Shown here: piece after piece, positions 17,996-49,835 of the stretch
How positions within the stretch are numbered: the stretch's first letter is position 1
How the letters are laid out: every line of letters begins with the position of its first letter
NCBI RefSeq assembly: GCF_004217615.1
Contig: NZ_SHLD01000001.1
Location: 4,154,001-4,218,000, forward strand
Source of the DNA: Micromonospora kangleipakensis
GTDB taxonomy: Bacteria > Actinomycetota > Actinomycetes > Mycobacteriales > Micromonosporaceae
Length of the DNA stretch: 64,000 bases
Direction of reading: 5' to 3'
Made by a program: the position numbers and the translations under genes
The notes under the pieces: model-generated
The model's input: only the letters and a program-made list of their open reading frames with translations
Database searches by the model: none
Told to the model about the DNA's origin: nothing

Positions 17996-20608
17996 TCAGG
18001 CGGGCGAGGGCTGTGCCTCCGCCAGGGAAAGCAGGAAGAAGCCATGACCGGCCACGCCGAGGTCGTATTCGCCTGACTCCTGCACCTTGGGGAACTCGGC
18101 GCCGCCCATCAGCTCCCGTGGCCCACGGCCGGCGTGGGAGGACAGGGCCAGCGTCGTCGTCTGTGGGTACCGGGAGAAGTTGAACAAGCACAGCACCTCG
18201 TCGTCGCGGTCGCCGCGGAGGAATGCGAGAACGGCCGGGTTGGTCGACCGGACGATGCGGCAGCCAGGGCGGGAGAACGCCGTCCAGGCGTGGCGGGTCT
18301 CGATCAGCTTCTCCACCACGTGCAGCAGGGAGGACCGTGCGCGGAGTTGGTTCTCCACGTTGACCGCCATGTAGCCGTAGATCGACTCGTGGATCAGCGG
18401 TGCCGGCAGGTTCTCCGGCTGTGCCACGGAGAAGCCACCGTTGCGGTCCGGTGCCCACTGCATCGGCGTGTGGACCGCCAGGTGACCCGGCAGCGACAGG
18501 TTCTCGCCCATGCCGATCTCGTCGCCGTAGTAGACGACCGGAACGCCGGGCATTGACAGCAGCAACGCGAAGGCGAGTTCGAGCTGCCCCCGGTCGTCGT
18601 TGAGCAGGCTGGCCGTCCGCCTGCGGATGCCGGCCGCGCCCCGCATGCGGGCCAACGGCGCGTAGGTGTGCAGCAGTTCGTCGCGTTCCCGATCATGCAG
18701 CAGGCCCAGCGACATCTCGTCCCCGTTGCGGAGAAACACCGCCCAGTGGCGGTCACCCGGCTGGTCACGCATCTGCGACAGCACCCGTGACACCGGCCGG
18801 TGCGTCTCACGCCGCATGGCGAGCAGCAGACTCGGCATGAGCGAGGCGTACATCACCAGGTGGCACTCGGGGTGCTCCTCGGTGCCGAAGTAGGAGCTGG
18901 CGCCCTCCGGCCAGTCCTCGCTCCACGCGATGATGATCCGGTTCGGGTATGTCGAGTCCATCCAGGACCGCAGCTCGCGCAGGTAGCTGTGCGTCTCGTC
19001 GAGTCCCTTGCTCGACGTGCCGGTGCGCTCGAACAGGTAGGGAACCGTGAGCAGGCGCAGGCCGTCGACCCCCTGCCGGAGCCAGAAGTCCATCACGTCA
19101 CGCATCGCGGCCAGCACCTCGGGCGCGTCATAGTTCAGGTCCGGCTCGTGCTTGCTGTAGCGGTGCCAGTAGTACTGTCGCCGGCTACCGTCGTACGTCC
19201 AACCCGCGCCACGGCTGCTGAGCGGCTCGTCCGCCTCGGCGTAGTCGTCGCCCGTGTCACTCCACACGTAGAAGTTCCCGTACGGGCCGTCCGGGTCGCT
19301 TCGGGAGGCCTCGAACCACGGATGCTGGTCGCTGGTGTGGTTGAGCACCAGGTCCAGCACCATCCGCAGGCCCTGCCGACGGGCGAGGGTGAGCAGCTCC
19401 AGCAGGTGCGACGGCTGTCCGAGGCCCTCGTCGATGGCCTCGAAGTCGGACGCCGCCCGACCATCACTCAGTGACGGTGACGCCATTATCGGGTTCAGCA
19501 GCAGGCAGTCCATCCCCAGCCGGCGCAGGTAGTCCAGCTTCTCGGTGATGCCGCGCAGGTCGCCGTGGCCGTCGCCGTCTGAGTCGTAGAAGAACCGTAC
19601 GTTCACCTCGTAGAACGTGCTGCCAGCCGCCCAGTTCGGGTCGCTTGGCGGCTCCGGGCCGGGATCGTCCTCGACCTCGGCGCGGGCGACGCGGAGGCGA
19701 CCCGACAGGGCCTGCCGCGCTCGCGCGGCCACGCGCTCCGCCGGGTCCCGCTCCAGGGTCTCGAGTGTCTCGAACGCGGCCACCAGCTGCTCGCGGGCCC
19801 GGTGGTTGCCGTGCGCCCAGTTGCTCAGCTCGTCCACGGCCAGCACCCGTGCCGACGCGAGCCCGCTCCGGGTGAGCGCGAGGAGGTCGCCCGGAATCAG
19901 CTCGGGCCGCCGGGGCGCGTTGCTGAGGATCAGGTCCCCGACGCCGGCGGCCCGCATCTGGGGGGTCTGCCGGCGTTCCCGGTCGACCATCCGTACAGCC
20001 GCGTACTCGAAGGCCTCCCGAACGCTGATGATCCCGTTGCCGTCGCGGTCGGCGGCGCCGGTCCGCAGCCCCTCGAGAAAGGGGCCGGAGAACGCGGACG
20101 GCAGCGCGTGCTGCTTGTAACCGTCACCCTCGTGGGCCAACTCGGTGGCCCCGGCGGACACCACGACGATGCGGCTGCGGTCCCCGCGTTGCTTGAGGTC
20201 GCCGAAGGCGCCTGCGTGGCAGCAGTCCAGGATCAGTACCAGCTCGCTGGCCCGGCACTCGTCGATCCAGTGCCGCAGCTCGTCTGTCGGGACCGCGGTC
20301 GGCGGAATGCGGTCCGGGTCCGTGTCGGAGGCAGTGAGGTAGAGGCGATGGCCGTCGTGCAGTCGCCCGTGGCCGGAGTAGTACACGAGCAGGAAGTCGT
20401 GGGGATCGGCGCTCTTCAGGAAGTCGTAGAGCGTCACCTGCGCGGTGTGTGAGTCCTCGTCGAGGCGGTCCCGGACGTCGTCGAAGGCGCCGAGCCCGGG
20501 ATCCCGGAGCAGCCGGGCCCAGTCCTTGAGGTCAATGGCGGGCGAGTCCAGGTCGGGCAGCGCTTCGCTGGCGTACGTGCCCACACCGATCAGGAGCGCG
20601 CGCTTCAC
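17996..20608 (-). CDS. Caspase-like protease fused to an inactive trehalose-synthase-like GH13 domain
   Basis: This 870-residue fusion starts at a GTG at 20608. Residues 1-230 are a caspase/peptidase C14 domain with catalytic His80 in VYYSGHGR and Cys130 in LILDCCHAGAF, plus an EF-hand-like DRDGNGIISVREAF. A helical linker (about 240-325) leads to a GH13 domain closest to trehalose synthase: FYEVNVRFFYDSDGDGHGDL, region I DLVLNHTSDQHPWF, and MPGVPVVYYGDEIGMG. The catalytic positions are lost: the nucleophile Asp of RLDAVPYL is Leu520 (RLLTVPYL), the acid Glu of LLAEANQWP is Trp562 (IIAWSEDWP), and NHDE is NGDE. The GH13 part is thus probably a sugar-binding pseudoenzyme. It lies 33 bases downstream of an EACC1 gene, the setting of actinobacterial protease effectors in conflict systems. 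Confidence 0.9.
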   Translation of the reverse strand: MKRALLIGVGTYASEALPDLDSPAIDLKDWARLLRDPGLGAFDDVRDRLDEDSHTAQVTLYDFLKSADPHDFLLVYYSGHGRLHDGHRLYLTASDTDPDRIPPTAVPTDELRHWIDECRASELVLILDCCHAGAFGDLKQRGDRSRIVVVSAGATELAHEGDGYKQHALPSAFSGPFLEGLRTGAADRDGNGIISVREAFEYAAVRMVDRERRQTPQMRAAGVGDLILSNAPRRPELIPGDLLALTRSGLASARVLAVDELSNWAHGNHRAREQLVAAFETLETLERDPAERVAARARQALSGRLRVARAEVEDDPGPEPPSDPNWAAGSTFYEVNVRFFYDSDGDGHGDLRGITEKLDYLRRLGMDCLLLNPIMASPSLSDGRAASDFEAIDEGLGQPSHLLELLTLARRQGLRMVLDLVLNHTSDQHPWFEASRSDPDGPYGNFYVWSDTGDDYAEADEPLSSRGAGWTYDGSRRQYYWHRYSKHEPDLNYDAPEVLAAMRDVMDFWLRQGVDGLRLLTVPYLFERTGTSSKGLDETHSYLRELRSWMDSTYPNRIIIAWSEDWPEGASSYFGTEEHPECHLVMYASLMPSLLLAMRRETHRPVSRVLSQMRDQPGDRHWAVFLRNGDEMSLGLLHDRERDELLHTYAPLARMRGAAGIRRRTASLLNDDRGQLELAFALLLSMPGVPVVYYGDEIGMGENLSLPGHLAVHTPMQWAPDRNGGFSVAQPENLPAPLIHESIYGYMAVNVENQLRARSSLLHVVEKLIETRHAWTAFSRPGCRIVRSTNPAVLAFLRGDRDDEVLCLFNFSRYPQTTTLALSSHAGRGPRELMGGAEFPKVQESGEYDLGVAGHGFFLLSLAEAQPSPA

Positions 20609-20641: not shown

Positions 20642-21067
20642 TCACTCACCATCGACCTTCTGGGGCACGGCGGGCATGCCCTGCCGGGGCACCGACACCG
20701 ACTTGATGACCTCGGTCAGGGTCTTCTCCGACACGTCCCGCACGTCGATCTCGGTGCCGTCCGGGAGGCTCAGCCGCAGCCGCTTGCCCTTGTTGCGTTC
20801 CTGGTAGCGCTTGATGACCTCGGTCAGGTGCTTGATGTCCGCCGCCGCCCGCTTCGCGGTCGGATAGCTGAAGACGGCGAGGGTGAGTGCGCCGAAGATG
20901 GTGCTGACCGGATCTCGCGTCCCCGGCTCGGCCTCCTCGACGAGTTCCATCGCCTCGACACCCGGAACCTGGTTCAGGTGGTCCTTCAGATGGCGCGCCT
21001 GCTCGGCGAGTTCCTCATCGGTGACCGGCCCGTCGGGCACGACCCGCAAGATCAATCCATCGACCAT
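20642..21067 (-). CDS. Effector-associated constant component EACC1-like protein
   Basis: This 141-residue protein has an N-terminal alpha/beta part (MVDGLILRVVPDGPVTDEEL), a central hydrophobic helix (STIFGALTLAVFSYPTAKRA), and a C-terminal segment where a basic strand (RLRLSLPDGTEIDVRDVSEK) is followed by a helix. This is the pattern of the EACC1 family described in predicted NTP-dependent conflict systems of multicellular bacteria, where it accompanies varied effectors, often caspases or trypsins. It precedes the caspase fusion on the same strand with a 33-base gap, so the two probably form one unit. EACC1 is thought to link the effector to its activator; the mechanism is not established. 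Confidence 0.75.
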   Translation of the reverse strand: MVDGLILRVVPDGPVTDEELAEQARHLKDHLNQVPGVEAMELVEEAEPGTRDPVSTIFGALTLAVFSYPTAKRAAADIKHLTEVIKRYQERNKGKRLRLSLPDGTEIDVRDVSEKTLTEVIKSVSVPRQGMPAVPQKVDGE

Positions 21068-22071: not shown

Positions 22072-22496
22072 CGTTCGGGTTCCGTTCTTCGGTCGAGTTG
22101 GGTGAGCAGGAAGCTCACCTCGGTGTGCAGGCGACGCAGCTCAGCGGCCGTCGGCGCCAGCTCGTAGCAGTGGTGGTGGGCGGCGGTCGACAGGGTCGCC
22201 CAGGTGAACGCGATCCGGCGGGCGACACCGACGCCGGGCCCGAGCCGGCCGCGCAGCATCAGCTGCTTCGCCCGGCCCTGCCGGCACGAGGCAACCGTCG
22301 GCTTGACCCGCCGCCAGTAGGCGTCGATGCCGCCCTCGAGCGCGAGCCGGATCAGGCAGGCGCACGCCCGCGGCCACCAGCCGGCGGTCACCGCGGCCGC
22401 GCCGAGGGCGCCGGCGCCGCGCAGCAGCTGGTCGGCCGCCGCCAGGCAGCGCTGCGGCGTCGGCGCGGCCACCCGGGCACCTCCACCGGCGCTCAC
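22068..22496 (-). CDS. Small helical partner protein of the AAA ATPase
   Basis: This 142-residue protein starts at a GTG (22494-22496) that overlaps the stop of the AAA ATPase gene, so the pair is translationally coupled. It is almost entirely helical. The conspicuous segment is WATLSTAAHHHCYELAPTAAELRRL, with three consecutive His, preceded by a basic helix (YWRRVKPTVASCRQGRAKQ). The all-helical make-up recalls HEPN-like proteins, but the RxxxxH motif of HEPN nucleases is not evident. It probably works with the ATPase; function unknown. Confidence 0.7.
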   Translation of the reverse strand: MSAGGGARVAAPTPQRCLAAADQLLRGAGALGAAAVTAGWWPRACACLIRLALEGGIDAYWRRVKPTVASCRQGRAKQLMLRGRLGPGVGVARRIAFTWATLSTAAHHHCYELAPTAAELRRLHTEVSFLLTQLDRRTEPER

Positions 22497-24928
22497 GACA
22501 GGGCCGCCGCGAGGTGGCGGGCGTCCGCGACCAGGCCGGGCAGGTCCGCCAGGTACGCCCCGTGCACGCCCTCCTTGCACGCCTTGTACGCGCCCACCGC
22601 CCGCGACCCGTGCCGGCGACTCAGATACCCGAGCACGTCACCGCCCCGGTCCGCGTTGTCGAAGACCGCCAACGCGACGGTGGTGGTCAGCCGCCGGGAC
22701 GCGTCCACGATGGCCGCCTCGATCCGGTGGTGCGGCACCCCGCGGGCCACCCGCTGCCGCCACACGATCCGGTGGCAGCTCGCTTCGATCGCCGAGCGGC
22801 ACAGCTCCGCGACCACCGGACCGCGCACCTCGGCGGCGATCTCCTCGTTGCGCGACAGCGCGTACGCGTCGTCCAGGTAGCGGGTCACCGGGTCGGAGCC
22901 CGGCCGCAGCGTCACCACCGACCGCTCGGCGCGGCTCACCTCGACGATCCGGGCCTGGCCCAGGTTCAGCCGTTCCACCGCCTCGGGCAGCCGGGTGTCG
23001 TGGGTGAAGACCACCACCTGCCGCTGCTCGGCCAGCTCGGCGAAGACCCGCGCCAGCCCGTCGACCTTCGACGGGTCCATGCTCTGCACCGGGTCGTCGA
23101 CCACGATGAACCGGAACGGGCTCTCCGGCGCGCAGCCGCGCGGCAGGAACGTCGCCAGCCCGAGCGCCTGCATCTCGCCCTGGCTCATCACGCCCAGCGC
23201 GGTGCCGTTGTCGGTGCCGTCGACGCTGACCGGGAAGACCACCCGTCGCCGGGTGTTCGCCCCCTCCAGGGTCATCGCCCCGAGCTCGACGTTGCTCTCC
23301 TGGCGCAGCTGCGCCCAGATCCGCTGCGACTGCTCGGCGAACGGCGCCACCCGCTGGTTGCGCAGCTCGGTCGCCGTGGCCTTCAACCAGTTCCGGGCGG
23401 CCTTCAGCCGGGCGAAGGTCCGCTCCCGCTCCGGCAGCCGCCCGGCGGCGACCAGCCAAGCCCGCAGGCCGGCCGCCGCGGCCTGCCAGCCGGTGTCACG
23501 CAGGCAGAGCAGGCCTTTCGCGTACGAGCGGAGGTCCGCCGCCGCCGCGACGACCGCCGGATACCGGGCGCTCAGGTGCTCGGCGAGCTCCTCCGGCCCG
23601 CCGGGGGCCAGTCGCAGCGCCGCCACGGCGTCGTGCAGCCTGGCCAGTGGCACGTCCGGCGCGTCCGCGTCGGGCACGTCCAGGTCGTCGATCAGGTGGT
23701 GGGCCCGCTGCACCAGCGTGTTGAGCCGGGCGGCGGTGGCCTGCGCGGCCAGCGTCCGATCCCGCAGCTCGTCCAGCGTCGCGGCGGCCCGCGTCCGCCA
23801 GTCCCCGTCGAGCCGGCCCGTGGCGCAGACCGGGCACGAGCCGTCTCCCCGGTCGTCGTGGTGCTCGATGGCCAGCCGCAGCAGCTCCGCGCTGCGCAGC
23901 GACGCCCGCGAGCGTCCTCCGTCGTGGCGACGGGCGTTCACGGCGGCGTCCCGCAGCTGCCCGGCGAGCCCGGTCACCTGGTCGGCGTCGGGCAGCGACA
24001 GGGCGGCCAGCCGCCGGCACAGCAGCACGGTCGCGTCGGCGGTCGGATCGTCCGGCTCGTCGAGGATCGCGGCAAGCGCCGCCAGGTCCGGCCGGTTGGC
24101 GGCGAGCAGCCCGGCCGCCCGCCGGGCCCGGTCGTCGTCCACCTCCCCGAGCAGCCCGATGAGGGCGGCGCGCTGGGCGCGTACCTCCCTGATGGCCGCG
24201 TCGACGGGCCGGGCGGCGGCCATCAGCCGCCGGTCGGCGTCGGTGATCGCCTCCAGGCCGAGGATGGCGAAGAGCGCGTCGAAGAGCTGGCTCTGCGTGC
24301 CGGCGGCGAGCCGCCCCAGCTCGGCCGCGGTGAGGAACGGCCGGTAGAGCCCCAGCGGCCGGGCCAGACCCAGCTCGTCGAGGTCCGCGTGGCGGCCGTG
24401 CGCGCTGGTCACCGTGGTCGTCGCGTCGCCCAGCTCGCCGCCGGCCGACCAGGACCGCACGACCCGGGTCGGCGTGGCGGCGCCGTCGACGCGCAGCTCG
24501 ACGGCGATCCGGCACACCTCCGGGTGGTGCAGGTTGCGCCACCCGGTACGCCAGACGCTGTTGCGGTCCGCCCACCGGGCGCTGTCTCCGGTCAGCGCCA
24601 GCTCCACCGCCTCGGCGAAGCTCGACTTGCCGGAGCCGTTGCGGCCGACCACCACGGTCAGCCCCGGGCCCGGCTCGATGGCGAGGGTGCGCTCCGGGCC
24701 GACGCCGCGGAAGCCGGCGACGGTGACCGACGAGAGCCAGATCCGCTCCTGCGGCTGGTCCGCCGCCGGACGCTGCGGCTCCAACGCGGTCGGCTCGCCG
24801 GCGAGCGCCGCGTCCAGGTCGGCCTCGCCGCTGAGCGCGGCGAGGACCACGTCGGCGGTGTCATCGGGTACGCGGTCGGCGGCGAGCCGGTCGAAGATCA
24901 GCTCGACCAGGGGTTCGGTGCGGTTCAT
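22493..24928 (-). CDS. Rad50/SMC-like AAA family ATPase with zinc-hook motif
   Basis: This 811-residue protein starts at the ATG at 24928, which has GGAGGT 6 bases upstream; the frame is open further up but lacks family sequence. The N-terminal ATPase lobe has WLSSVTVAGFRG and Walker A GRNGSGKSSF (about 95-104). The middle is long helical/coiled sequence interrupted at about residue 363 by CPVC, the Rad50 zinc-hook consensus. The C-terminal lobe has the signature SQGEMQALGLATFLP, Walker B FIVVDDPVQSMD and an H-loop VVVFTHD. The last 150 residues form an extra helical domain. Such ATPases occur in phage-defence systems (RloC-like) as well as repair. The overlap with a small partner favours a two-gene defence unit. 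Confidence 0.88.
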   Translation of the reverse strand: MNRTEPLVELIFDRLAADRVPDDTADVVLAALSGEADLDAALAGEPTALEPQRPAADQPQERIWLSSVTVAGFRGVGPERTLAIEPGPGLTVVVGRNGSGKSSFAEAVELALTGDSARWADRNSVWRTGWRNLHHPEVCRIAVELRVDGAATPTRVVRSWSAGGELGDATTTVTSAHGRHADLDELGLARPLGLYRPFLTAAELGRLAAGTQSQLFDALFAILGLEAITDADRRLMAAARPVDAAIREVRAQRAALIGLLGEVDDDRARRAAGLLAANRPDLAALAAILDEPDDPTADATVLLCRRLAALSLPDADQVTGLAGQLRDAAVNARRHDGGRSRASLRSAELLRLAIEHHDDRGDGSCPVCATGRLDGDWRTRAAATLDELRDRTLAAQATAARLNTLVQRAHHLIDDLDVPDADAPDVPLARLHDAVAALRLAPGGPEELAEHLSARYPAVVAAAADLRSYAKGLLCLRDTGWQAAAAGLRAWLVAAGRLPERERTFARLKAARNWLKATATELRNQRVAPFAEQSQRIWAQLRQESNVELGAMTLEGANTRRRVVFPVSVDGTDNGTALGVMSQGEMQALGLATFLPRGCAPESPFRFIVVDDPVQSMDPSKVDGLARVFAELAEQRQVVVFTHDTRLPEAVERLNLGQARIVEVSRAERSVVTLRPGSDPVTRYLDDAYALSRNEEIAAEVRGPVVAELCRSAIEASCHRIVWRQRVARGVPHHRIEAAIVDASRRLTTTVALAVFDNADRGGDVLGYLSRRHGSRAVGAYKACKEGVHGAYLADLPGLVADARHLAAALS

Positions 24929-25060
24929 CAGGCGACCTCCGACGGCTGCTGATGCGGGTTCGGGGAGGGCGTGCGGGCCGGCGGTTCCGGCTCGTGCCGG
25001 TCCGCCGATGGTGGTGGTGCGCCGAGGCTGCAAAATTGCTTGTCGTCTATAGATCGGCGG

Positions 25061-27880: not shown

Positions 27881-29827
27881 GTGCATGAGACACCGACCAT
27901 CACGGCAGCGGAGATCGCCCGGCTCGCCGGGGTCGGTCGCGCTGCAGTCAGCAACTGGCGCAAACGGCACGCCGACTTCCCCGCCCCGGTCGGCGGGACC
28001 CCGGCCAGCCCCGAGTTCGACCTGATCCAGGTCGAGCAGTGGCTACGCGGCCAGGGCAAGCTCCCCGAGCTCTCACCCGTCGACCGGCTCTGGCGGCACC
28101 TCGCCCCGACCACCGACACCGCCGCCGACGCGCTCGCCGCCGTCGGCGCCCTGCTGCTCGCCCGGCAACGCGGCGAACGCCCGTCACGGCGGCAGGTCGA
28201 CCGACGGCTGGCCGACCTGCTTCCCGAGATCAACGCCCTCGCCGACGACCTCGGCCCGCAGGCCGCGTTCGACCAGCTGTGGCAGCGCTTCTCCGCCCCC
28301 GGCCCCGGCCGGCCCTGGGCCACCCCCGACGACCTGGCCGACCTGATGGTCGGGCTCGCCGACGTCGGCGGCGGCGCCGTCCTCGACCCGGCCGCCGGCT
28401 CCGGTGCCACCCTCCGGGCCGCCGTCCGCGCCGGCTGCACCTCCGCGTACGGGCAGGAACTCGACGAGTCGCTCGCCCGGCTCGCCGGACTCTGGCTCGC
28501 CCTGCGGGACGTGCCCGGCGAGGTCCGCCCCGGCGACTCACTGCGCGCCGACGCGTTCCCCGGCCGCACCGTCGACGCCGTGCTCTGCCACCCGCCGTTC
28601 GGCATCACCACCTGGGGTCACGAGGAACTCGGCTACGACCCGCGCTGGGAATACGGCCTGCCTCCGCGTACCGAACCGGAGCTGGCCTGGGTGCAGCACG
28701 CCCTCGCCCACCTGCGACCCGGCGGGCACGCCGTCCTGCTCATGCCCCCCACCGCCGCCGGCCGCCGTGCCGGTCGGCGGATCCGCGCAGAACTGCTGCG
28801 CCGCGGCGCGCTGCGCGCCGTCGTCGCGCTACCGCCCGGGGTGGCCGCGCCGCACGGCGTACCGCTGCACCTGTGGGTGCTGCGGCGGCCCGCGGCCGAC
28901 GCGCCGCCACCGGCGCGGGCGCTGCTGATCGACGCCGCCGATGGCGACCTTGCCGAGCTGTACGCACGGGTACTGACCACCTGGCGGGCCTTCACCGCCG
29001 CGCCCGACGCCGAGATCGAGGAGGTCGGCTTCGCCCGCGCGGTGCCGGTCATCGAGCTGCTCGACGAGGAGGTCGACCTCACCCCCGCCCGCCGGCAACC
29101 CGCCGTCGGGGGCGAGCAGACCGGCGAGCATCTGGTACGCACCAGAGAGCGGCTCGCCGCCATGGTCGGCGACCTGCCGGCGCTGATACCGCAGGTGACG
29201 CCTGAGCCCGACGGGGCCACCGCGCCGCTTACCCTGTCGATCGCCGAGCTGGCCCGCAGCGGCGCCCTGCAACTGATCGGCCCGGTCCGCGTTGCGGGCG
29301 GCGCCGGCGAGAAGCCGTCAGCGGGACAGGCCGGCGGGCCGCCGGTGCTCACCGTGTCGGACGTGCTCAACGGTACCGAGGCATCGGAGCAGGTCGCCGA
29401 GCGGCTCGGCCAGGAGATCCGGCTCGCCGTCGGGGACGTGGTGGTGCCGATGATCGCGCGGCAGCTTACCGCCCGGGTTGTGACGACCGAGGGCGCGCTG
29501 CTCGGCCGCAACATCTACCTCTTGCGACCCAACCCGGCGGCGCTGGACCCTTGGTTCCTTGCGGGTCAGTTGCGTACGTCGGCCAACGAGCGGCAGGCGA
29601 GCAGCCTGTCGGGCACGCTGCGTTTCGACATCAAACGGGCGCAGGTGCCTCGCGTGCCGCTGGACGAACAGCGGCGACGCGGTGAGGCGTTCCGGCGGCT
29701 CGATGCGTTCGACTGCGCGCTGCGGCAGGCGTCGGCGCTGGGCGCCGACCTGGTGCGGATGACAGCCGACGGCCTGGCCCGTGGCGTTCTCCGACCGGCC
29801 AACGACTCCCCGCAAAAATCACAGTGA
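27881..29827 (+). CDS. HTH-fused N6-adenine DNA methylase with degenerate motif IV
   Basis: This 648-residue protein starts at a GTG. Residues 5-60 form a helix-turn-helix (IARLAGVGRAAVSNWRKRH). A helical segment and an HsdM-like methylase core follow, with motif I AVLDPAAGSGATLRAA (about 166-180). Motif IV, normally N/D-PP-Y/F, reads CHPPFG with His237 in place of the catalytic Asn/Asp. The C-terminal 200 residues resemble a type I specificity module (PWFLAGQLRTSANERQ, IKRAQVPRVPLDEQRR). It is a clear paralogue of the methylase at 49836-51803, which keeps NPPF. It may bind DNA and SAM without efficient methylation. Confidence 0.88.
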   Translation: MHETPTITAAEIARLAGVGRAAVSNWRKRHADFPAPVGGTPASPEFDLIQVEQWLRGQGKLPELSPVDRLWRHLAPTTDTAADALAAVGALLLARQRGERPSRRQVDRRLADLLPEINALADDLGPQAAFDQLWQRFSAPGPGRPWATPDDLADLMVGLADVGGGAVLDPAAGSGATLRAAVRAGCTSAYGQELDESLARLAGLWLALRDVPGEVRPGDSLRADAFPGRTVDAVLCHPPFGITTWGHEELGYDPRWEYGLPPRTEPELAWVQHALAHLRPGGHAVLLMPPTAAGRRAGRRIRAELLRRGALRAVVALPPGVAAPHGVPLHLWVLRRPAADAPPPARALLIDAADGDLAELYARVLTTWRAFTAAPDAEIEEVGFARAVPVIELLDEEVDLTPARRQPAVGGEQTGEHLVRTRERLAAMVGDLPALIPQVTPEPDGATAPLTLSIAELARSGALQLIGPVRVAGGAGEKPSAGQAGGPPVLTVSDVLNGTEASEQVAERLGQEIRLAVGDVVVPMIARQLTARVVTTEGALLGRNIYLLRPNPAALDPWFLAGQLRTSANERQASSLSGTLRFDIKRAQVPRVPLDEQRRRGEAFRRLDAFDCALRQASALGADLVRMTADGLARGVLRPANDSPQKSQ

Positions 29828-36115: not shown

Positions 36116-39100
36116 GTGCCGAGCGCTACCACGGAGAAGCCGAGGATCGGTGACCTGGTCGCGGTGCGTGGCCAGCGGTGGGTGGTCAGCGACGTCCAGG
36201 ACGGCGAGCACAGCAGCCTGGCCAGCCTGCAGAGCGTCGAGGACGGCCGCTACGGCCACACCCTCGACGTGATCTGGGAGGTCGAGCCCGGGCGGCAGGT
36301 GTTGCCCAGCGGCTCGCTACCCGAGGTCATCGAAGGCAAGTTCGACTCGCCGCAGCGGCTCGCCGCGTTCCTCGATGCCGTCCGCTGGTCGGCGGTCACC
36401 TCCGCCGACGTGAAGACGTTGCAGTCGCCGTTCCGCTCCGGTGTTGCGATCGAGGACTACCAGCTCGAGCCGGTCGCCCGTGCCGTCGACGCGCCCCGGG
36501 TCAACCTGCTGCTCGCCGACGACGTTGGCCTCGGTAAGACCATCGAGGCCGGCCTGGTCGCCCAGGAACTGCTGCTGCGCCACCGCGCCCGGCGCATCAT
36601 GATCGTCTGCCCGGCCGGTCTGACCATCAAGTGGCGGGACGAGATGGCGGAGAAGTTCGGCCTCGACTTCACCGTCATCGACGCCGCGCTCTGCGCCAGC
36701 GTCCGCCGGACCCACGGCTCCGCGGCGAACCCGTTCGAGGTCTACCCGCTGAGCATCGTCAGCCTGCCGTGGCTGCGCGGGCAGAAGGCCCAGCGCCTCC
36801 TCGACGAGGTGCTGCCCGCGGACGAACCGACCTACCCGCGCACCTTCGACCTGCTCATTCTCGACGAGGCGCACCACGTCGCTCCCGCCGCGCCGAAGCA
36901 GATCTACGCGGTCGACTCGCAGCAGACCAAGCTGATCCGCCGACTCGCGCCGCACTTCACCCACCGGCTCTTCCTGTCGGCCACCCCACACAACGGTTAC
37001 CAGGCGTCCTTCACCGCCCTGCTGGAAATCCTCGACAACCAGCGGTTCGCCCGTGGCGTGGAGCCCGACCAGTCGGCGGTGAAGGACACCGTCGTCCGCC
37101 GGCTCAAGCGCGACGTGGTCAACGCCGACGGCACGCCCCGCTTCGTGGAGCGGGTCGCCTCTGCGATCCCGGTCGCCTACCCCGAGAGCGAGCGGCAGAT
37201 CCACGCTCTGCTGACCGAGTTCGCCGAGCTGCGGCGTAAGCGGCTGCACTCCCAGCGGGGCCGCAAGGCCACAGACCTGGTGACCCTGCTGCTCAAGAAG
37301 CGACTCTTCTCCAGCCCGGCCGCCTTCGCCCACACGGTGAGCGTCTACCTGGAGACGCTGAAGAGCCGCAAGGCTCCCGCCTCTCTGCCCGGCGGTGACG
37401 ACGTGCCGGAGTGGATGGAGGACTTCTTCGACGACGTCGCCACCTACGACGACGAGCAACTCGCCGACGCCGAGGACGACGCGATCGGCCGGACCCGGCC
37501 GATGCAGCCGGACGCCACAACCGACGAGATGGCTCTGCTGGAGAAGATGCTCCAGTGGGCCGAGGCACACGAGGCGCAGCCCGACGCCAAGGCCCGCGAA
37601 TTGATCACCTACCTGACCGCGGTCTGCAAGCCGGACGGCCGGCACTGGACCAACGAGCGCGTCGTGGTCTTCACCGAGTACCGCGACACGCAGATGTGGC
37701 TGGCCGAGCTCCTTCGCCAGGAGGGCCTGGCCGGGACGGCGCTCGCGCTGCTGCACGGCGGAACGCCGACCGACGACCGGGAGCAGCTCCGGCTGGCCTT
37801 CCAGACCGACCCCACCGAGCAGCCGGTACGCATCCTGCTCGCCACCGATGCCGCCAGCGAGGGCATCGACCTGCAGAAGCACTGCCACCGCCTGGTGAAC
37901 TACGACATCCCGTTCAACCCGAACAAGCTGGAGCAGCGCATCGGCCGGGTCGACCGGTACGGCCAGACCACCGCCCCCGACATCCGGCACTTCGTCGGCA
38001 CCGGCTTCGGCAGGGCCGTCGACTCGTACGAGGCGGACCTGGAGTTCCTGTCCCGGGTCGCCACCAAGGTCGCCCGGATGGAGGCTGACCTCGGCTCGGT
38101 CAACGCTGTCCTGGCCGAGGCCGTGCAGCGCCGCATGCTCGGCGAGCAGGTCAACGTGGACGTCGACAAGGCAGGCAAGAGTAAGAACAGCCGCAGCCTC
38201 CCCACGGAGGCCAACCTGCGCGAGCAGGTCGTCCGGCTCCGCGCTGACCTGGACAAGACCGTCGAGGAACTGGGCATCACGCCGGTCGCCGTCAAACGGG
38301 TCGTCGACACCGCGCTGGAACTGGCCCGCCAGCAGCCGCTGACCCGGCACCTCGACGACAAGCACCTGGTCGACGGCCTCTACACCGTCCCGCCGCTCAC
38401 CGGCTCCTGGCAGCGGGCCACCGCAGGGCTGACCGCCAAGCTGCAGCGCGACGACGAGCCGCCCCGACAACTGCCGGTCACCTTCGACTCGATGGTCGCC
38501 AAGGGCGAGGACGACATCGTGCTGGCCCACCTCAACCACCCGCTGGTCGCCATGTCGACCCGGCTGCTGCGTGCCGCCGTCTCCAACCCCGACATCGGCC
38601 TGCACCGGGTCGCCGCCGTGGTCAGCGACGACCCGGCGCTGGAGGACGTCCTGGTCGGGGCGTACTCGCGGTTCGTGCTCGTCGGCGCCGACGGCATCCG
38701 GTTGCACGAAGAGGTCCTCTACGCCGGCGGCTGGGCACCCGAGCAGGGCCGGTTCCGCCGGCTGGAGAACCTGGGCACCCTCGGCGGCATCCTCGACCGG
38801 GCCCTCACCAGCAGCACCTCAGCATCCCCACTGGTCCAGGCCCGTCTCGCCGAGCGGTGGCCGCGGATCGCCGACGGCCTTGTTGCCGCCATCGACTGGC
38901 GCTCCAACACCCGGCAGGAGGCGTTGGCGCGAAAGCTCGACCAGCGGCAGAAGGCCGAAGAAGAGCGCATCAAGCACAACCTCGACCAGTTCGCCGCAAC
39001 TCTGGAGAGCGCGCTCAAGGCACCCGAGGCCCCAGAAGAAGGCGATGAGGGTCAAGAGTCTTTCTTCACCCGAGTTCAGCTCGACGCGATGAGCAAGAGC

Positions 39101-39280
39101 AAGGAAGAACTGGCCCAGTACCGCAAGGACCGTCAATCCTGGGAGGAACGCTTGCCGGCCCTGGAAGCCGAGCGCGACCGCGAACTCGACGCCGTCGCCG
39201 CCCGCTACCGCGATCCGAAGCCGCACCGGTTCCCGGTGGCCGTGGTCTTCGTCGTACCGAAGCGGGAGGCGACCCGATGA
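36116..39280 (+). CDS. drmD: DISARM helicase DrmD (SNF2-type, class 1)
   Basis: This 1054-residue SNF2-family ATPase starts at GTG 36116 behind GGGGGAGG. Walker A is ADDVGLGKTIEAG (about 135-147), Walker B LILDEAHHV (about 248), motif III SATPHNG, and the C-terminal RecA lobe has VFTEYRDTQMW and QRIGRVDRYGQ. The C-terminal third is helical with long charged runs. DrmD is the signature component of class 1 DISARM, a phage-defence system. The gene heads a five-gene run with drmMI, drmA, drmB and drmC, all overlapping by 1-4 bases. A promoter is expected in the 207 bases upstream. Confidence 0.93.
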   Translation: MPSATTEKPRIGDLVAVRGQRWVVSDVQDGEHSSLASLQSVEDGRYGHTLDVIWEVEPGRQVLPSGSLPEVIEGKFDSPQRLAAFLDAVRWSAVTSADVKTLQSPFRSGVAIEDYQLEPVARAVDAPRVNLLLADDVGLGKTIEAGLVAQELLLRHRARRIMIVCPAGLTIKWRDEMAEKFGLDFTVIDAALCASVRRTHGSAANPFEVYPLSIVSLPWLRGQKAQRLLDEVLPADEPTYPRTFDLLILDEAHHVAPAAPKQIYAVDSQQTKLIRRLAPHFTHRLFLSATPHNGYQASFTALLEILDNQRFARGVEPDQSAVKDTVVRRLKRDVVNADGTPRFVERVASAIPVAYPESERQIHALLTEFAELRRKRLHSQRGRKATDLVTLLLKKRLFSSPAAFAHTVSVYLETLKSRKAPASLPGGDDVPEWMEDFFDDVATYDDEQLADAEDDAIGRTRPMQPDATTDEMALLEKMLQWAEAHEAQPDAKARELITYLTAVCKPDGRHWTNERVVVFTEYRDTQMWLAELLRQEGLAGTALALLHGGTPTDDREQLRLAFQTDPTEQPVRILLATDAASEGIDLQKHCHRLVNYDIPFNPNKLEQRIGRVDRYGQTTAPDIRHFVGTGFGRAVDSYEADLEFLSRVATKVARMEADLGSVNAVLAEAVQRRMLGEQVNVDVDKAGKSKNSRSLPTEANLREQVVRLRADLDKTVEELGITPVAVKRVVDTALELARQQPLTRHLDDKHLVDGLYTVPPLTGSWQRATAGLTAKLQRDDEPPRQLPVTFDSMVAKGEDDIVLAHLNHPLVAMSTRLLRAAVSNPDIGLHRVAAVVSDDPALEDVLVGAYSRFVLVGADGIRLHEEVLYAGGWAPEQGRFRRLENLGTLGGILDRALTSSTSASPLVQARLAERWPRIADGLVAAIDWRSNTRQEALARKLDQRQKAEEERIKHNLDQFAATLESALKAPEAPEEGDEGQESFFTRVQLDAMSKSKEELAQYRKDRQSWEERLPALEAERDRELDAVAARYRDPKPHRFPVAVVFVVPKREATR

Positions 39281-42200
39281 GCCGCAACTTCCGACGCCCG
39301 CCCGCCCCCGACGGCGCCGAGCAGCACCGCAACTGGCTGAGCCTGGTCGAGGTCAGCGGCCCGTTCCTCAGCCTGCCGGTGCTCCGCGCCACCTGGCCGA
39401 CCCTCGACACCCTCGACAAGAAGCAGCGCGAGCGGCTGCGGCAGGAGCACGCCACCTGGCAGGCCGACACCGCTATGGGCCAGCAGACCTGGATCGGGTA
39501 CGTGCTGCGCGACCTGCTCGGCTGGGGCGACACCCTGCACGAGGACGCCCTCGACGCCCTCGCGCACACCGTCGCCGAGCACGACACCGAGCTGCGCCCG
39601 TCGTTCGCGCTGGTCGAGCCGGGCGAGGAGGTCAAGTCCGACACCGTACGGCTGCTCGGTGTGGTCTGCCCGGCCGGCAGCCAGCCGACCGCCCGGATCC
39701 GCGACTCGGCGTGGGCCGCGACGCCGGTCGACCGGCTCGCCCACCTGTGCCGGCATCACAACATCGAGTTGGGCCTCGCCACCGACGGTCGCTGGTGGAC
39801 ATTCGTCTGGGCGCCGCGCGGCGGCGTCACCACCACTGCGGTCTTCGACGTGGTTGGTTGGCCGGAGGCGGCCGAGCGTGACGTGGTCCGCGCCTTCGTA
39901 TCGTTGCTGTCCCGGCAGCGCTTCTTCGGCGTCCCCGACGACGAGCGGCTGGTCCCGCTGCTGCGGGCGAGTCTTGGCAGCCAGGAGGAGATCACCGAGG
40001 CGCTCGGTGTCCAGGTCCGCCGGGCCGTCGAGCTGCTGGTGGCGGCGATGGGCCGCATCGACGTCCGGGACCGGGAACTCGGCGGGCGCGGCCTCCAGGA
40101 CGTCGACGCGCACGACGTCTACCGCGGTGCGGTCGCGGTGATGATGCGGATCGTCTTCCTGCTCTTCGCCGAGGAGCGCAAGCTCCTGCCCGCCGACAAC
40201 GAGCTGTACGCCACGGCGTACTCGGCCGGGCGGCTCTGCGCCGAGCTGGAGCAGCGGGTGATCGAGGGCAGCGAGGAGGACCTGGAGCACAGCGCCGCCG
40301 CCTGGCACCGGCTCCTCGCCCTGTTCAACGCGGTCTACCGGGGCGTTGACCACCCCCGGCTCACCATGCACGGCCACGACGGGTCGCTCTTCGACCCGGG
40401 CGCCACGCCTTGGCTGCCACTGACCATTGATGACCGCACCGTGCTGCACATGCTCCGAGCCGTGCAGTACGTCGAGATCGGCACCGGTAAGTCGCGGGAG
40501 CGCCGTACGCTCAGCTTCCGCGCCCTCGACGTGGAGCAGATCGGGTACGTCTACGAGGGCCTGCTCTCCTTCGAGGGCTTCCGCGCCGAGGACGTGACGG
40601 TCGGGCTGATCGGCAAGGAAGGGCTGGAGGAGGAGGTCCGGCTCGCCGACCTGGAGGCTATCGCCTGGCAGGTTGACGACGTGCCAGCGCTGGCCAAGGC
40701 GCTGGCTGAGAAGTACAAGGACTCGAAGATCGGCTCCGTCGCGGCGTTGACCAAGCGGCTGGCATCGCTCGACGGGCCGGAGCGTGAGGAGGCACGCAAG
40801 AAGCTACTCGCCGTCACCGGCGGCGACTACCCGCTCTCCGAACGACTGCTGCCGTTCGTCGGGATCATCCGTGAGGACCTGCGGGGCCTGCCTGTGGCGA
40901 TCCTGCCCGGGGCGCTCTTCGTCACGGAGTCCGCCCTGCGAAAAAACACCGGCACCCACTATACCCCTCGGAAGCTTGCGCAGGATGTTGTGGAAGGTGC
41001 ACTGGAGCCGCTGGTCTACGAGCCGGGCCCGTTGCAGACCGCCGACAAGTCGCAGTGGAAGGCGAAGTCCAGCAAGGAGATCCTCGCGCTCAACGTCGCC
41101 GACATCGCCATGGGGTCCGCGGCCTTCCTGGTTGCTGCGGCCCGTTACCTGGCCGTGCACCTGATCGAGGCGTGGTCGCGGGAGGGGGATGACCGGGCGC
41201 TCCCCCACCAGCAGCGTGGGATCGACCGGCCGGTGGATGCCGACGAGGACCCGCTGGTCATCGAGGCGCGCCGGCAGATCATCGAGCACTGCTTGTACGG
41301 GGTGGACATCAACCCCATGGCCGTCGAGATGGCGAAGCTGTCGCTCTGGCTGGTCTCCATGGACCCACAACGCCCCTTCACTTTCCTCGACGACCGCCTG
41401 GTCGCCGGCGACTCGCTCCTTGGCATCACCTCGCTTGAGCAGCTCGAATACATGCACCTGGACCCCAAGAAGGGGCGGGCGCTGCACGAGGACACTCTTC
41501 ACGGTTTCACCTCTGGAGTTCGGTCCCTCGTGGCCGAGGTCGCCGACGACCGCCGCGCCATCGGGAGGATCACCCTCGGCGATGATCCGATGGCAGCGCT
41601 CAGCAAGAAGCGCGAGCTGCTTGAGATCGCAAAGGCAAAGGCGGAGCCCTTCAGTCTCTTCGCGGACCTGACGGTCGGTGCTGTGCTGGCCTACGCCAGC
41701 AGGGGCGAGCGAGGCCTCGGCGCGGGAGCTGTCGAGGCCGCCAAGCTCGCCAACGACGTCGCCTCCGGCTCTGGCAAGCAACCAGTCGAGGAGCAGCGGA
41801 CGAGATGGCTCGCCACCGATCACGTTCCGGGCTCCTTCGACCGCAGGCCCCTGCACTGGCCGCTCGTCTTTCCTGAGGTCTTCGAGCGCGGCGGCTTCGA
41901 TGCGATCATCGGCAACCCGCCGTTCCTCGGCGGACAGAAGTTGACCGGCGCATTGGGTACGGCCTACCGCGAGCTCTTGGTCAACGGGCTCGGCCGCGGC
42001 GCCCGGGGTAGCGCCGACCTGGTCGCCTACTTCGTCCTCCGGGCCCACGACCTCCTCAACCCCTCGGGCCAGACTGGCCTTATCGCCACCAACACGCTTG
42101 CACAAGGCGACACGCGCGAGGTGGGCCTCGACCAGGTCGTTGCTGACGGAACTTCCATTCGGCAGGCGATCAAGAGCAAGCCCTGGCCGTCCAAATCGGC

Positions 42201-43326
42201 AGTGCTGGAGTACTGCGCCATATGGACAAGTCGCCGCCGGCTCGACGAAAGGGCCGAGCATCGTTCCAACGGGATCGTCGTTGCGGGAATTACTCCTTCG
42301 CTTGACCCCGCCTCCCGTGTGGCGGGTAACCCGAACCGGCTTGCCGCCAACTCGGCGATGGCATTCGTAGGCTCGTACATCCTTGGCATGGGTTTCACTA
42401 TGGAGCCGCCTGCTGCTGCTGCTCTGATTGGAAGAGACAAGCGCAATGAGGACGTTCTCTTCCCCTATCTGAATGGGCAGGATCTAAACTCCCGCCCCGA
42501 CTGCTCGGCAAGTCGCTGGGTAATCAACTTTCATGACTGGAGCGAAGACAGGGCGAAGTCGTATGTCGATTGCTACGACCAGGTGGTACGGCTCGTTAAG
42601 CCTGAGCGCGAACGGAACAATGACAGGCGGCGTCGCGAGATTTGGTGGCGCTTCACGCGCCCCGCGCCTGAACTGTATTCCTCGATCGCGGGTCTTGGGC
42701 GAGTTGTTGCCATCGCTCGGGTGAGCAAGACCGTCATGCCCGTGCTTGTGGGAACCGGTCAAGTTTTCTCCATCGACTTGAACGTCTTCGCGACGGATGA
42801 CGCGGCGATGTTGGCATTGCTGTCGAGTGCGCCCCACTATTGGTGGGCAGTCAGCCGGGCGTCGTCGATGAAGGCGGATCTCCGCTACACACCATCGGAC
42901 GTGTTCGAGACGTTCGCGTTGCCAGAGTTGACGGCAGAGATGCGCGAACTCGGGGATCGGCTGGACACGTACCGCCGGGACGTGATGTTGAGCCGGCACG
43001 CCGGCCTGACGGCGACCTACAATCTGGCTTTCGATCCGGGATGCCGGGACGAGGACATCGTGGAGCTGCGGCGCGCGCACCGTGAGATCGACGAGGCGGT
43101 CTGCTGCGCCTATGGGTGGGATGACCTGGTTGCGCTAGGGCTCGACCACGGATTCCACAAGGCCGGCGCCTACACCCGCTACACCGTTGGCCCTGCCGTT
43201 CAGCGCGAGATTCTCGACCGGCTGCTGGAGCTGAACCATCAACGCTACGCAGAGGAAGTCGAAAAGGGCCTGCACGACAGGAAGACCGGCCGCAAGGCGA
43301 AGGCCGCGGAAGGGACGTTGTTCTGA
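39277..43326 (+). CDS. drmMI: DISARM adenine methyltransferase DrmMI (PglX/Eco57I-like)
   Basis: This 1349-residue N6-adenine methyltransferase marks host DNA in class 1 DISARM. The N-terminal 500 residues are helical and carry the FLLFAEERKLLPADN segment of this family. The methylase core begins at RKNTGTHYTPRKLAQDVVEG. SAM motif I reads DIAMGSAAFLVAAARYL, the acidic adenine-side motif is LYGVDINPMAVEMAKLSLWL, and motif IV is IIGNPPFLGG (Asn880). A target-recognition-like region follows, ending near residue 1300. It overlaps drmD by four bases (ATGA) and drmA by one. Base composition drops slightly in 42.2-43.1 kb (the recognition domain), as expected for a fast-changing region. Confidence 0.94.
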   Translation: MSRNFRRPPAPDGAEQHRNWLSLVEVSGPFLSLPVLRATWPTLDTLDKKQRERLRQEHATWQADTAMGQQTWIGYVLRDLLGWGDTLHEDALDALAHTVAEHDTELRPSFALVEPGEEVKSDTVRLLGVVCPAGSQPTARIRDSAWAATPVDRLAHLCRHHNIELGLATDGRWWTFVWAPRGGVTTTAVFDVVGWPEAAERDVVRAFVSLLSRQRFFGVPDDERLVPLLRASLGSQEEITEALGVQVRRAVELLVAAMGRIDVRDRELGGRGLQDVDAHDVYRGAVAVMMRIVFLLFAEERKLLPADNELYATAYSAGRLCAELEQRVIEGSEEDLEHSAAAWHRLLALFNAVYRGVDHPRLTMHGHDGSLFDPGATPWLPLTIDDRTVLHMLRAVQYVEIGTGKSRERRTLSFRALDVEQIGYVYEGLLSFEGFRAEDVTVGLIGKEGLEEEVRLADLEAIAWQVDDVPALAKALAEKYKDSKIGSVAALTKRLASLDGPEREEARKKLLAVTGGDYPLSERLLPFVGIIREDLRGLPVAILPGALFVTESALRKNTGTHYTPRKLAQDVVEGALEPLVYEPGPLQTADKSQWKAKSSKEILALNVADIAMGSAAFLVAAARYLAVHLIEAWSREGDDRALPHQQRGIDRPVDADEDPLVIEARRQIIEHCLYGVDINPMAVEMAKLSLWLVSMDPQRPFTFLDDRLVAGDSLLGITSLEQLEYMHLDPKKGRALHEDTLHGFTSGVRSLVAEVADDRRAIGRITLGDDPMAALSKKRELLEIAKAKAEPFSLFADLTVGAVLAYASRGERGLGAGAVEAAKLANDVASGSGKQPVEEQRTRWLATDHVPGSFDRRPLHWPLVFPEVFERGGFDAIIGNPPFLGGQKLTGALGTAYRELLVNGLGRGARGSADLVAYFVLRAHDLLNPSGQTGLIATNTLAQGDTREVGLDQVVADGTSIRQAIKSKPWPSKSAVLEYCAIWTSRRRLDERAEHRSNGIVVAGITPSLDPASRVAGNPNRLAANSAMAFVGSYILGMGFTMEPPAAAALIGRDKRNEDVLFPYLNGQDLNSRPDCSASRWVINFHDWSEDRAKSYVDCYDQVVRLVKPERERNNDRRRREIWWRFTRPAPELYSSIAGLGRVVAIARVSKTVMPVLVGTGQVFSIDLNVFATDDAAMLALLSSAPHYWWAVSRASSMKADLRYTPSDVFETFALPELTAEMRELGDRLDTYRRDVMLSRHAGLTATYNLAFDPGCRDEDIVELRRAHREIDEAVCCAYGWDDLVALGLDHGFHKAGAYTRYTVGPAVQREILDRLLELNHQRYAEEVEKGLHDRKTGRKAKAAEGTLF

Positions 43327-46300
43327 TGGTCGACGTACAGGGAGGTCTCTTCCCGCATCCGCGCGGCGAGCAGCAGGCGCTCACGATGCCCGGCAGGGAC
43401 GACGCCGACCAGCAGGCACTGATCCAGCCGCTCGACGTGCCGCAGACGTTCCCCGAAGCCACCTCGTACCAGGTGCGGGATGAGCTGGAGGAGTTGATCG
43501 GGCGGGACTTGCTCGGGCCGTGGGACGGCGAGCACGAGGAGTTCCGCCCCGGCGCGATGGGCCCGCGCGAGCGCTACCTCGTCGGCATGCTGGGCCCGAA
43601 GCAGCGCCCGCGCTCCGACCGCCGCGAGGCGGCCGAGGTCGCGGACGTGGACGCCGCCGTCCAGGGCGACGGCAGCGAGGCCGAGCTGCCTGAGGTCGTC
43701 ACCCCGCAGAACCTCGGCAAGATGTGGGCCTCCTCCATGGGCCTGTCGTTCGCCGTTCCCGGCGACGTCGACGTCCTGTCGGTGACCGCCGACTGGGGCC
43801 GCTACGACCTGCGCGAGTCCGAGGACGAGAAGGGCAAGAAGCGCCGGGTCTGGTTCCGCGAGCCGGTGTCGTACCGGAAGGAAGTCCGCCTCGACGGCGA
43901 GACGTCCTACCGGATGCCGCTGACGGTCCCCGACGAGGACGACCCGGGCGTGCACCTGGCCGTCGAGGTCCGGCCGCGCAACGGCGGCCGGGTGGTGCAG
44001 CTCGCCCTGATCAATACGCAGATGGAGGCGACCAGCAACGGCGACACCGCCTGGCTCTTCCAGACCGCCCTCACCGTGACCGCGCTGGACGGCGACGCCG
44101 CCGTCTTCCTGCCGATTGATGACCCGCTCGACGGCGTGCGGGGCGTTGACGACGACCAGGAGGAGACGCACCTGCGGCTGCTCTACCGGTCGCAGCGCCG
44201 CTACGCCGCAGGCCGCAACGTGGCCGTGCACCCATCGGTGCGTGACGGCGAGCGGTGGGCGCACCAGCTCGTCACCACCTGGCTGCCCACCTACAACGTG
44301 CCGGCGACCGTCGCCCAGGTCGGCAAGGGCTCCGGCCTGGCCGGCGTGGAGCTGTCCATGGACGCCCTCGCCGCCGCCGACATCGACCGGCTGCGCACCG
44401 GGCTCGCGCCGCTGGCCGATGGGTACGAGGCATGGCTGGACGACGAGGAAGCGAAGATCCCCGGCCTGCCGGAGCCGCTCCGCAACGCTGCCGAGGCTGC
44501 GGTGTTCACCGCGCGTCGGGCCGCCGAGCGGATCCGCGCCGGCATCGCGCTGCTCACCAACCCGGAGGCCGACAAGCACGCCGACGCCCTCGCCGCGTTC
44601 CGGTTCGCCAACGAGGCGATGGCGCTGCAACGCCGGCACAGCGAGGTCGGCCGCCTCCGCGAGGACAAGGGCCTGTCGTACGCCGAGGCCAAGGCCGCCA
44701 TCGACGGACGCGGCACGGCCGCCGCTTCCTGGCGTCCCTTCCAGCTCGCGTTCGTGCTGCTCAACCTGCCGTCCATCACCGATCCGGCGCACCCCGAGCG
44801 GGCTGCTAACCGGGACGCCACCGTCGACCTGCTGTTCTTCCCCACCGGTGGTGGCAAGACCGAGGCGTACCTCGGGCTGACCGCGTTCGCCTTCGCCATC
44901 CGCCGACGCCAGGGCGTGATCGGCGCTGGCGCGGACGCCCGCAGCGGTGAGGCCGGCGTCGCCGTGCTCATGCGCTACACGCTGCGGCTGCTCACCGCTC
45001 AGCAGTTCCAGCGGGCCGCCGCCCTGGTCTGCGCCGCCGAGGTGCTGCGCCGCAAGAACGAACGCAGCTGGGGGACCGAGCCGTTCCGGATCGGCCTCTG
45101 GGTCGGCGGCGGGGTGTCGCCGAACTGGTACAACGACGCCGCCGAGCAGATCGCCGAGGCACGCGAGGCGGGCAACGGCAAGTTCACCAACGTCCTCCAG
45201 ACCCTGAGCTGCCCCTGGTGCGGCTCCAAGCTGCGCGCCGAGCGGGACCTGGTCAGCAAGGACGACCTGCGCCGCGTCTTCCTCTACTGCCCCGAGGCCG
45301 AGGGCACCGACGCGTGCCCGTTCTCCCGGACCCGCTCGCCCGAGGGCCTGCCGATCCTCACCGTCGACGAGGAGATCTACCGGTACGCCCCCAGCCTGGT
45401 CATCGCCACCGTCGACAAGCTCGCCCAGCTGCCGTGGCGCGGCTTCGCCGGCCTGCTCTTCGGCCGGGTCCGCGAACGCTGCCCCCGGCACGGCTACCGG
45501 CACGACGACCTCGACGCCCGGACCGGCTGCGGCGCCCGGCACAACAAGAAGGGCAAGCTGGAGGCCGCCACCAGCCGGCCGGTGATCCGGCTGCGGCCGC
45601 CGGATCTGATCATCCAGGACGAACTGCACCTCATCTCCGGGGCGCTCGGCACCACGGTCGGCCTCTTCGAGGCGGCCGTCGACCAACTCTGCACCTGGCC
45701 ACTGCCCGGAGGCGGCGAGGCCGGGCCGAAGATCGTCGCCTCTACGGCGACCACCAAGCGGGCTCGCGAGCAGGTGCTCGGGGTCTTCGGCCGTGACCTG
45801 GCCGTCTTTCCGCCGCCGGTCATCGACATCACCGACACGTTCTTCAGCCGGCAGGTGCCGGTCACCGTCGACAACCCGGGCCGCCGTTACCTGGGCGTCT
45901 GCGCCCATGGCATCCGAATGAAGTCCGCCGAGATCCGGATCGCGGAGATCCTGCTGCTCGCCGGGCAGACCCTCATCGACCGGTACGGCCAGCCGGCCGA
46001 CCCGTACCTGACCACGGTCGGCTACTTCAACGCCACCCGCGAGCTCGCCGGGATGCGGCGCATCCTCGACGACCAGGTCGCCACCCGGGTCCGCTCCCAC
46101 GGCCGGCGAAAGGGCCTCTCCGACCGGCTCGTCGGCACCCAGATGCTCAACGTCCAGGAGCTGACCTCCCGGATCTCCTCCGGCGACATCAGCGACGTGC
46201 TCAAGCGGCTGGAGATCGGCTTCGACCCGGAGCTCGACACCTCCGCCCGCCGGCGGGCGATCCTCGACGACGCGCGGGAGGCGTACAAGTCGAAGACGGC

Positions 46301-49833: not shown

Positions 49834-49835
49834 AC

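Follow-up and report, generated by a model that had tools for sequence, protein, structure and literature searches.

The question raised by this locus is what a trehalose synthase (TreS) domain that has lost its catalytic residues does at the C-terminus of a caspase. The gene lies in a stretch of 64,000 nucleotides of Micromonospora kangleipakensis (contig NZ_SHLD01000001.1, positions 4,154,001 to 4,218,000), which as a whole is referred to here as the window, and its product, the fusion, consists of a caspase domain, a helical linker and a GH13 domain of the TreS type, the pseudo-TreS (Table 1).

For the active-site counts, the fusion set comprised the 16 full-length copies found and the truncated copy G137 (n = 17, L011 and L012 included); the fragment G049 stops short of the catalytic positions and is therefore outside the counts. 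Ordinary TreS were taken from 97 loci (80 from a contig profile scan, L023-L038, and L002, the separate TreS gene of the window's genome). The contig profile scan returned at least 80 loci, with no fusion among the matches listed, and these served as controls; the NHDE motif was found by pattern in 61 of the 80 listed loci, one of them with a spurious nucleophile match. The pattern filter demands the Asp of NHDE, was passed by 59 of the 97 loci and left 38 uncounted.

The Asp nucleophile was present in 59 of 59 ordinary TreS, whereas the position is occupied by Leu520 in the window's fusion and by Leu (15) or Val (2) across the 17 fusions. The Glu acid/base and the His of NHDE were likewise found in every ordinary TreS (59/59 each), compared with Trp562 and Gly629 (NGDE), respectively, in all 17 fusions. 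All three sites were thus intact in 59/59 ordinary TreS versus 0/17 fusions, and L002 has Asp, Glu and NHDE intact. By motifs, alignment and spacing, residues 520, 562 and 630 are the predicted counterparts of D238, E280 and D350, whose roles in M. tuberculosis TreS are given in the available text of PMC11019547. Sequencing error or local mutation is ruled out, because 17 of 17 copies, from four genera in two families, are without all three residues. On the simplest reading, the catalytic residues would have been lost once in a common ancestor, before the copies diverged to 49-52% identity, and would have stayed lost.

Apart from the nucleophile, the acid/base and the NHDE His, by which it differs from TreS, the domain resembles the enzyme throughout. 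It is full length, its fold is predicted to be intact (structure model and fold comparison) and to be that of TreS (TIGR02456; PDB entries 5h2t, M. smegmatis 3zo9, M. tuberculosis 4lxf and 8uqv), and homology extends over the whole domain, with 44-49% identity to seven sister-group rows. The fusion missed the cut-off of the TreS equivalog TIGR02456 (611.2 vs 678.35 bits), which is weak evidence alone because the genome's ordinary TreS is also below it (580 bits). Regarding the N-terminal part, the caspase domain scored 143.8 bits in a profile search with NF047832 (cut-off 140) and is also matched by PF00656; its His80/Cys130 dyad is intact and invariant across eight aligned rows. The linker contains modelled helices at residues 240-246, 251-266, 272-286, 291-302 and 305-313. 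A sequence-only reading of this DNA had described a caspase with His80 and Cys130 joined to a GH13 domain aligning with TreS along its length, in which Asp had become Leu520, Glu had become Trp562 and NHDE had become NGDE; the profile score, the whole-domain homology, the predicted fold and the comparison with the 59 ordinary TreS bear this out, and the homologues in four genera, none of which keeps Asp and Glu, speak against a local error.

The fusion was searched for in whole genomes at an E-value threshold of 1e-175, the order and class samples being draws from larger groups. Within the genus, 13 of 160 genomes, that of the window counted, have a full-length copy. At the family level two further genera carry the fusion (72% and 52% identity), and 16 of 354 genomes pass the threshold, the truncated G137 among them. 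A fusion at 49% identity was found in one genome of another family, in a search that 11 of 397 genomes pass, ten of them already found. The class sample yielded no passing copy apart from that of the window (1/394), at a threshold below which more distant fusions could score. A strict DNA scan for FLRNGDE in 288 genomes of the order gave eight matches, all inside the fusion gene and G137 included, and missed two sampled genomes with FLRNGDD (G026 and G110). Among plasmids, 792 records match, none with one place covering 80% of the query and none with a fusion; the best-ranked record shows 48% identity over the TreS part. Viruses yielded three weak caspase-like matches (26-29%) and no fusion. 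In the phylogenetic tree, from which L011 and L012 are absent, the fused TreS domains (15 copies) form one group with a support of 100/100, beside 12 actinobacterial TreS rows; the midpoint root is for drawing only, and a long-branch warning applies, L058 included.

The median ratio of nonsynonymous to synonymous substitution rates (dN/dS) between the window's copy and 13 relatives was 0.128 for the caspase, 0.187 for the linker and 0.164 for the TreS-like domain, by which plain decay of the fusion is rejected. Conservation was also compared column by column, using 138 columns at least 95% identical in 35 of the 59 ordinary TreS (a distant clade of 24 rows was left out). All 17 fusions agree with ordinary TreS in 95 of these columns, and in 14 every fusion departs from it (370, 384, 466, 469, 488, 520, 521, 562, 564, 588, 629, 633, 702 and 709), those within catalytic motifs being 384, 520, 521, 562, 564 and 629. 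Trp562, Gly629 and Glu702 are identical in 17/17 fusions. Since no copy varies at Trp562 or Gly629, the site looks, as far as the alignment tells, to have been remodelled and then constrained.

Table 1. Positions of the fusion, its parts, its partner gene, other genes of the window and two remnants at other loci
Feature	Position	Strand	Basis or remark
Caspase / helical linker / dead TreS fusion, 870 amino acids	17996..20608	-	open reading frame and orthologues
Caspase domain of EACC1-associated type, residues 1-222, His80 and Cys130	19943..20608	-	NF047832, PF00656
Helical linker, residues 223-322	19643..19942	-	structure model; BLASTP to L174
Dead TreS-like GH13 domain, residues 323-862; Asp to Leu520, Glu to Trp562, His to Gly629, Asp630 retained	18023..19642	-	
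EACC1-like partner gene, 141 amino acids, 33 bp upstream of the fusion	20642..21067	-	hydrophobic segment, residues 53-71
SMC/RecF-like ATPase	22493-25033	-	weak matches to defence ATPases mads_3, PDC-S06
Two N6 DNA methylase genes, type-I-like, flanking the DISARM-like genes	27881-29827, 49827-51803	+	PF02384
DISARM-like DrmD, DrmMI, DrmA, three consecutive large genes	36116-47162	+	1422, 1746, 958 bits
GmrSD-type restriction endonuclease, then UvrD/GajB-like helicase	57121-59640, 59701-61851	+	
Remnant without the N-terminal caspase half (G137)	L055 4719-6789		
Remnant, residues 640-870 only (G049)	L057 6894-7499		

The fusion does not stand alone. An EACC1-like gene lies directly upstream of 16/16 full-length fusions (the window and 14 fetched neighbourhoods by tblastn, G378 by eye only), and tblastn of the neighbourhoods found none beside the two remnants. 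When eight homologues of the small protein were compared with the Pfam family EACC1 (PF19953), five matched at E-values up to 10 (best 7.3e-6). In 8/8 copies the best hydrophobic 19-mer starts at residue 53-61 (mean Kyte-Doolittle value 1.2-1.9), and from its sequence this segment is probably membrane-associated. The main text of Kaur et al. (2020; PMC7159879) describes, as System 4, a 5' gene of EACC1 type followed by a 3' gene with an N-terminal caspase, prevalent in actinobacteria, with a membrane-associated EACC1 and up to 50 alternative C-terminal domains; there, the role in conflict and cell death is predicted from sequence, and no trigger is given for the EACC1-caspase systems. The window's pair likewise has an EACC1-like 5' gene, a caspase N-terminus with its His/Cys dyad and a variable C-terminal slot, and differs in that this slot holds a catalytically dead TreS. 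Because the partner gene accompanies all 16 full-length fusions, the pair is assigned by gene content to this described two-gene conflict system, with a module that is unnamed in the main text of PMC7159879. The sequence-only reading knew of no described system of this form; as worded, this is not supported, the partner gene having been overlooked. The terms amylase, glycosyl hydrolase, GH13, trehalose, maltose, sugar and TIM barrel have no occurrence in that main text; its figures or supplement might list such a module. A literature search, with supplements outside its reach, found no published precedent for a fusion of a caspase with a dead TreS; one paper that it turned up mentions amylase just as a mass standard.

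Variation in the C-terminal slot was also seen in eight other NF047832 caspases that were scanned (of 20 fetched): six carry further domains (FtsK/AAA, iHD-CE with wHTH-HSP90_Na-assoc, TPR or VWA), and two have no further Pfam match. The window's genome encodes two more caspases of the EACC1-associated type, L173 with FtsK/AAA ATPase modules and L174 with another tail. L174 is 33% identical to the fusion over residues 4-288 (BLASTP) and has the caspase and most of the linker in common with it, while the tail differs. The EACC2-caspase / TRADD-N systems (Kaur et al. 2021, PMC8195603) are similar in combining a constant component, a caspase and a variable C-terminus, and dissimilar in the constant component itself; in the available text a contribution of the variable domains to sensing is proposed. 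In the same text amylase, trehalose, glycosyl hydrolase, GH13, glycosidase and glycogen do not occur, and glycoside occurs in a reference title only.

The genes around the pair make the window a defence island, which fits a defence role (Table 1). For its SMC/RecF-like ATPase no counterpart was detected next to the fusion in the other fetched neighbourhoods, and when further neighbours from the window served as queries, the sole match near a fusion elsewhere was a TetR-like one (31%, in L041). In a comparison of flanks (shared stretches above 300 bp; 7 kb upstream, 4.5 kb downstream), 10 of 16 loci share flanks with one another, and the window, L041, L044, L053, L054 and L139 have no flank in common with any other fusion locus; the unshared flanks of these six suggest that the pair has changed place. 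A downstream flank of about 2.3 kb is common to L045-L052. In L048 (11703-14037, minus strand) genes of 168 and 612 amino acids, without a PADLOC match, lie directly downstream of the fusion.

Regarding function, a non-catalytic role of the dead domain is likely from the sequence comparisons, because the loss is common to all copies and the domain is under purifying selection, as the sequence-only reading had supposed. An enzyme without its catalytic residues is an unlikely catalytic effector, so that binder, scaffold and decoy are the candidate roles. The lasting loss of these residues suggests a present use of the tail in binding or regulation and not in chemistry. A non-enzymatic use of the GH13 fold is known from rBAT, an SLC3-type subunit of an animal transporter without a protease, in which the fold serves protein contacts and not catalysis; the rBAT fold matches that of the pseudo-TreS, at only 26-27% identity over the aligned fold.

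Tentatively, and as the leading candidate, the pseudo-TreS is taken to be an input module that gates the caspase by binding a protein or a new ligand. The steps from binding to cell death, all of which we infer, would be as follows. The first gene would supply the small protein with one hydrophobic segment and the second the caspase-linker-pseudo-TreS protein; the pseudo-TreS would recognise a protein (one from an invader, for instance, or a host protein that partners TreS) or alternatively a new small ligand in the remodelled pocket; its conformation or assembly would then free or activate the caspase, and cleavage by the caspase would kill the infected or stressed cell or make it dormant. 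It is conceivable, and on balance unlikely, that the pocket, fixed in its new form (Trp562, Gly629, acidic 564), senses a specific ligand or is a decoy for an invader protein attacking trehalose/alpha-glucan metabolism, which would couple carbohydrate metabolism to programmed death.

Several observations weigh against the pseudo-TreS as an input module of a defensive EACC1-caspase pair. In the main text of PMC7159879 the C-terminal domains are considered effectors freed by the caspase and EACC1 the sensor. The model of the whole fusion has a predicted template modelling score (pTM) of 0.65, at which the arrangement of caspase and TreS domain is not reliable. The window's own small protein matched PF19953 with an E-value of 0.021 and 15.3 bits, below the cut-off of 23.6, and its model is weak, hydrophobic segment included (predicted local distance difference test, pLDDT, 63.6). 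The fusion is patchy, being whole in few genomes of the genus, with remnants in two. Ten genes near the fusion in L041, L048, L053 and L054 matched no PADLOC family at 1e-8; because of this null result, and with a defence context seen in the window only, the genomic context alone is weak evidence.

The ranking favoured here places the input module first, an output view second and a sugar switch third. On the output view, which is possible and clearly less probable than the input module, the dead TreS would be an assembly platform, or an effector or decoy freed by the caspase, and EACC1 would do the sensing at the membrane. The System 4 proposal agrees with it; the difficulty of a dead enzyme as a catalytic effector does not, nor does the finding that, by sequence position, several of the 14 never-kept columns lie in catalytic motifs and two of these have settled on a new residue, a hint that the pocket has a role.

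In a sugar switch, the model of the sequence-only reading, the old site would no longer turn sugars over but would still bind maltose, trehalose or the ends of alpha-glucans and so gate the caspase as a metabolic death switch. The stabilising Asp630, His424, His482, Arg518 and Tyr333 are retained in 17/17 fusions, and according to the available text of PMC11019547 the nucleophile mutant D238A of M. tuberculosis TreS still bound a trehalose analogue (an inhibitor), with D350, which aligns with Asp630, coordinating the ligand. The losses, however, go beyond Asp, Glu and His: the Tyr of the GYD motif and the aromatic residue at 485 are gone in 17/17 fusions, the GYD Asp (385) in 14 (Ala in 14/14 copies from the window's genus; kept in three, from other genera only) and Arg713 in 15 (kept in two, again from other genera only), residue 713 being His or Asn in 14/14 copies from the window's genus. 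The changed GYD Asp and Arg713 in that genus disfavour ordinary maltose or trehalose binding, and a bulky Trp stands in place of the acid/base; the sugar switch is accordingly rated improbable.

Changed chemistry would rest on residue 564 (18917-18919, minus strand), two residues after the lost acid, which is Glu in 14 and Asp in three of 17 fusions vs Asn in at least 95% of the 35 ordinary rows, and which could act with Asp630; with the nucleophile left without replacement (Leu/Val), the NHDE His lost in 17/17, and the GYD Asp and Arg713 lost in most copies, this is very unlikely. A decaying neutral relic whose dead domain has no role, as the two remnants G137 and G049 might suggest, is largely refuted by the low dN/dS of the TreS-like domain (about 0.16), by a reading frame that stays open from end to end in 16 copies, the most divergent at 49% identity, and by the invariance of Trp562 and Gly629.

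TreS is a well-studied enzyme whose relatives include solved structures and whose partners and ligands are known; a module of this descent provides one EACC1-caspase system with a concrete, testable input. If it is true that the pseudo-TreS gates the caspase, the fusion would show a metabolic enzyme turned into part of a death switch.
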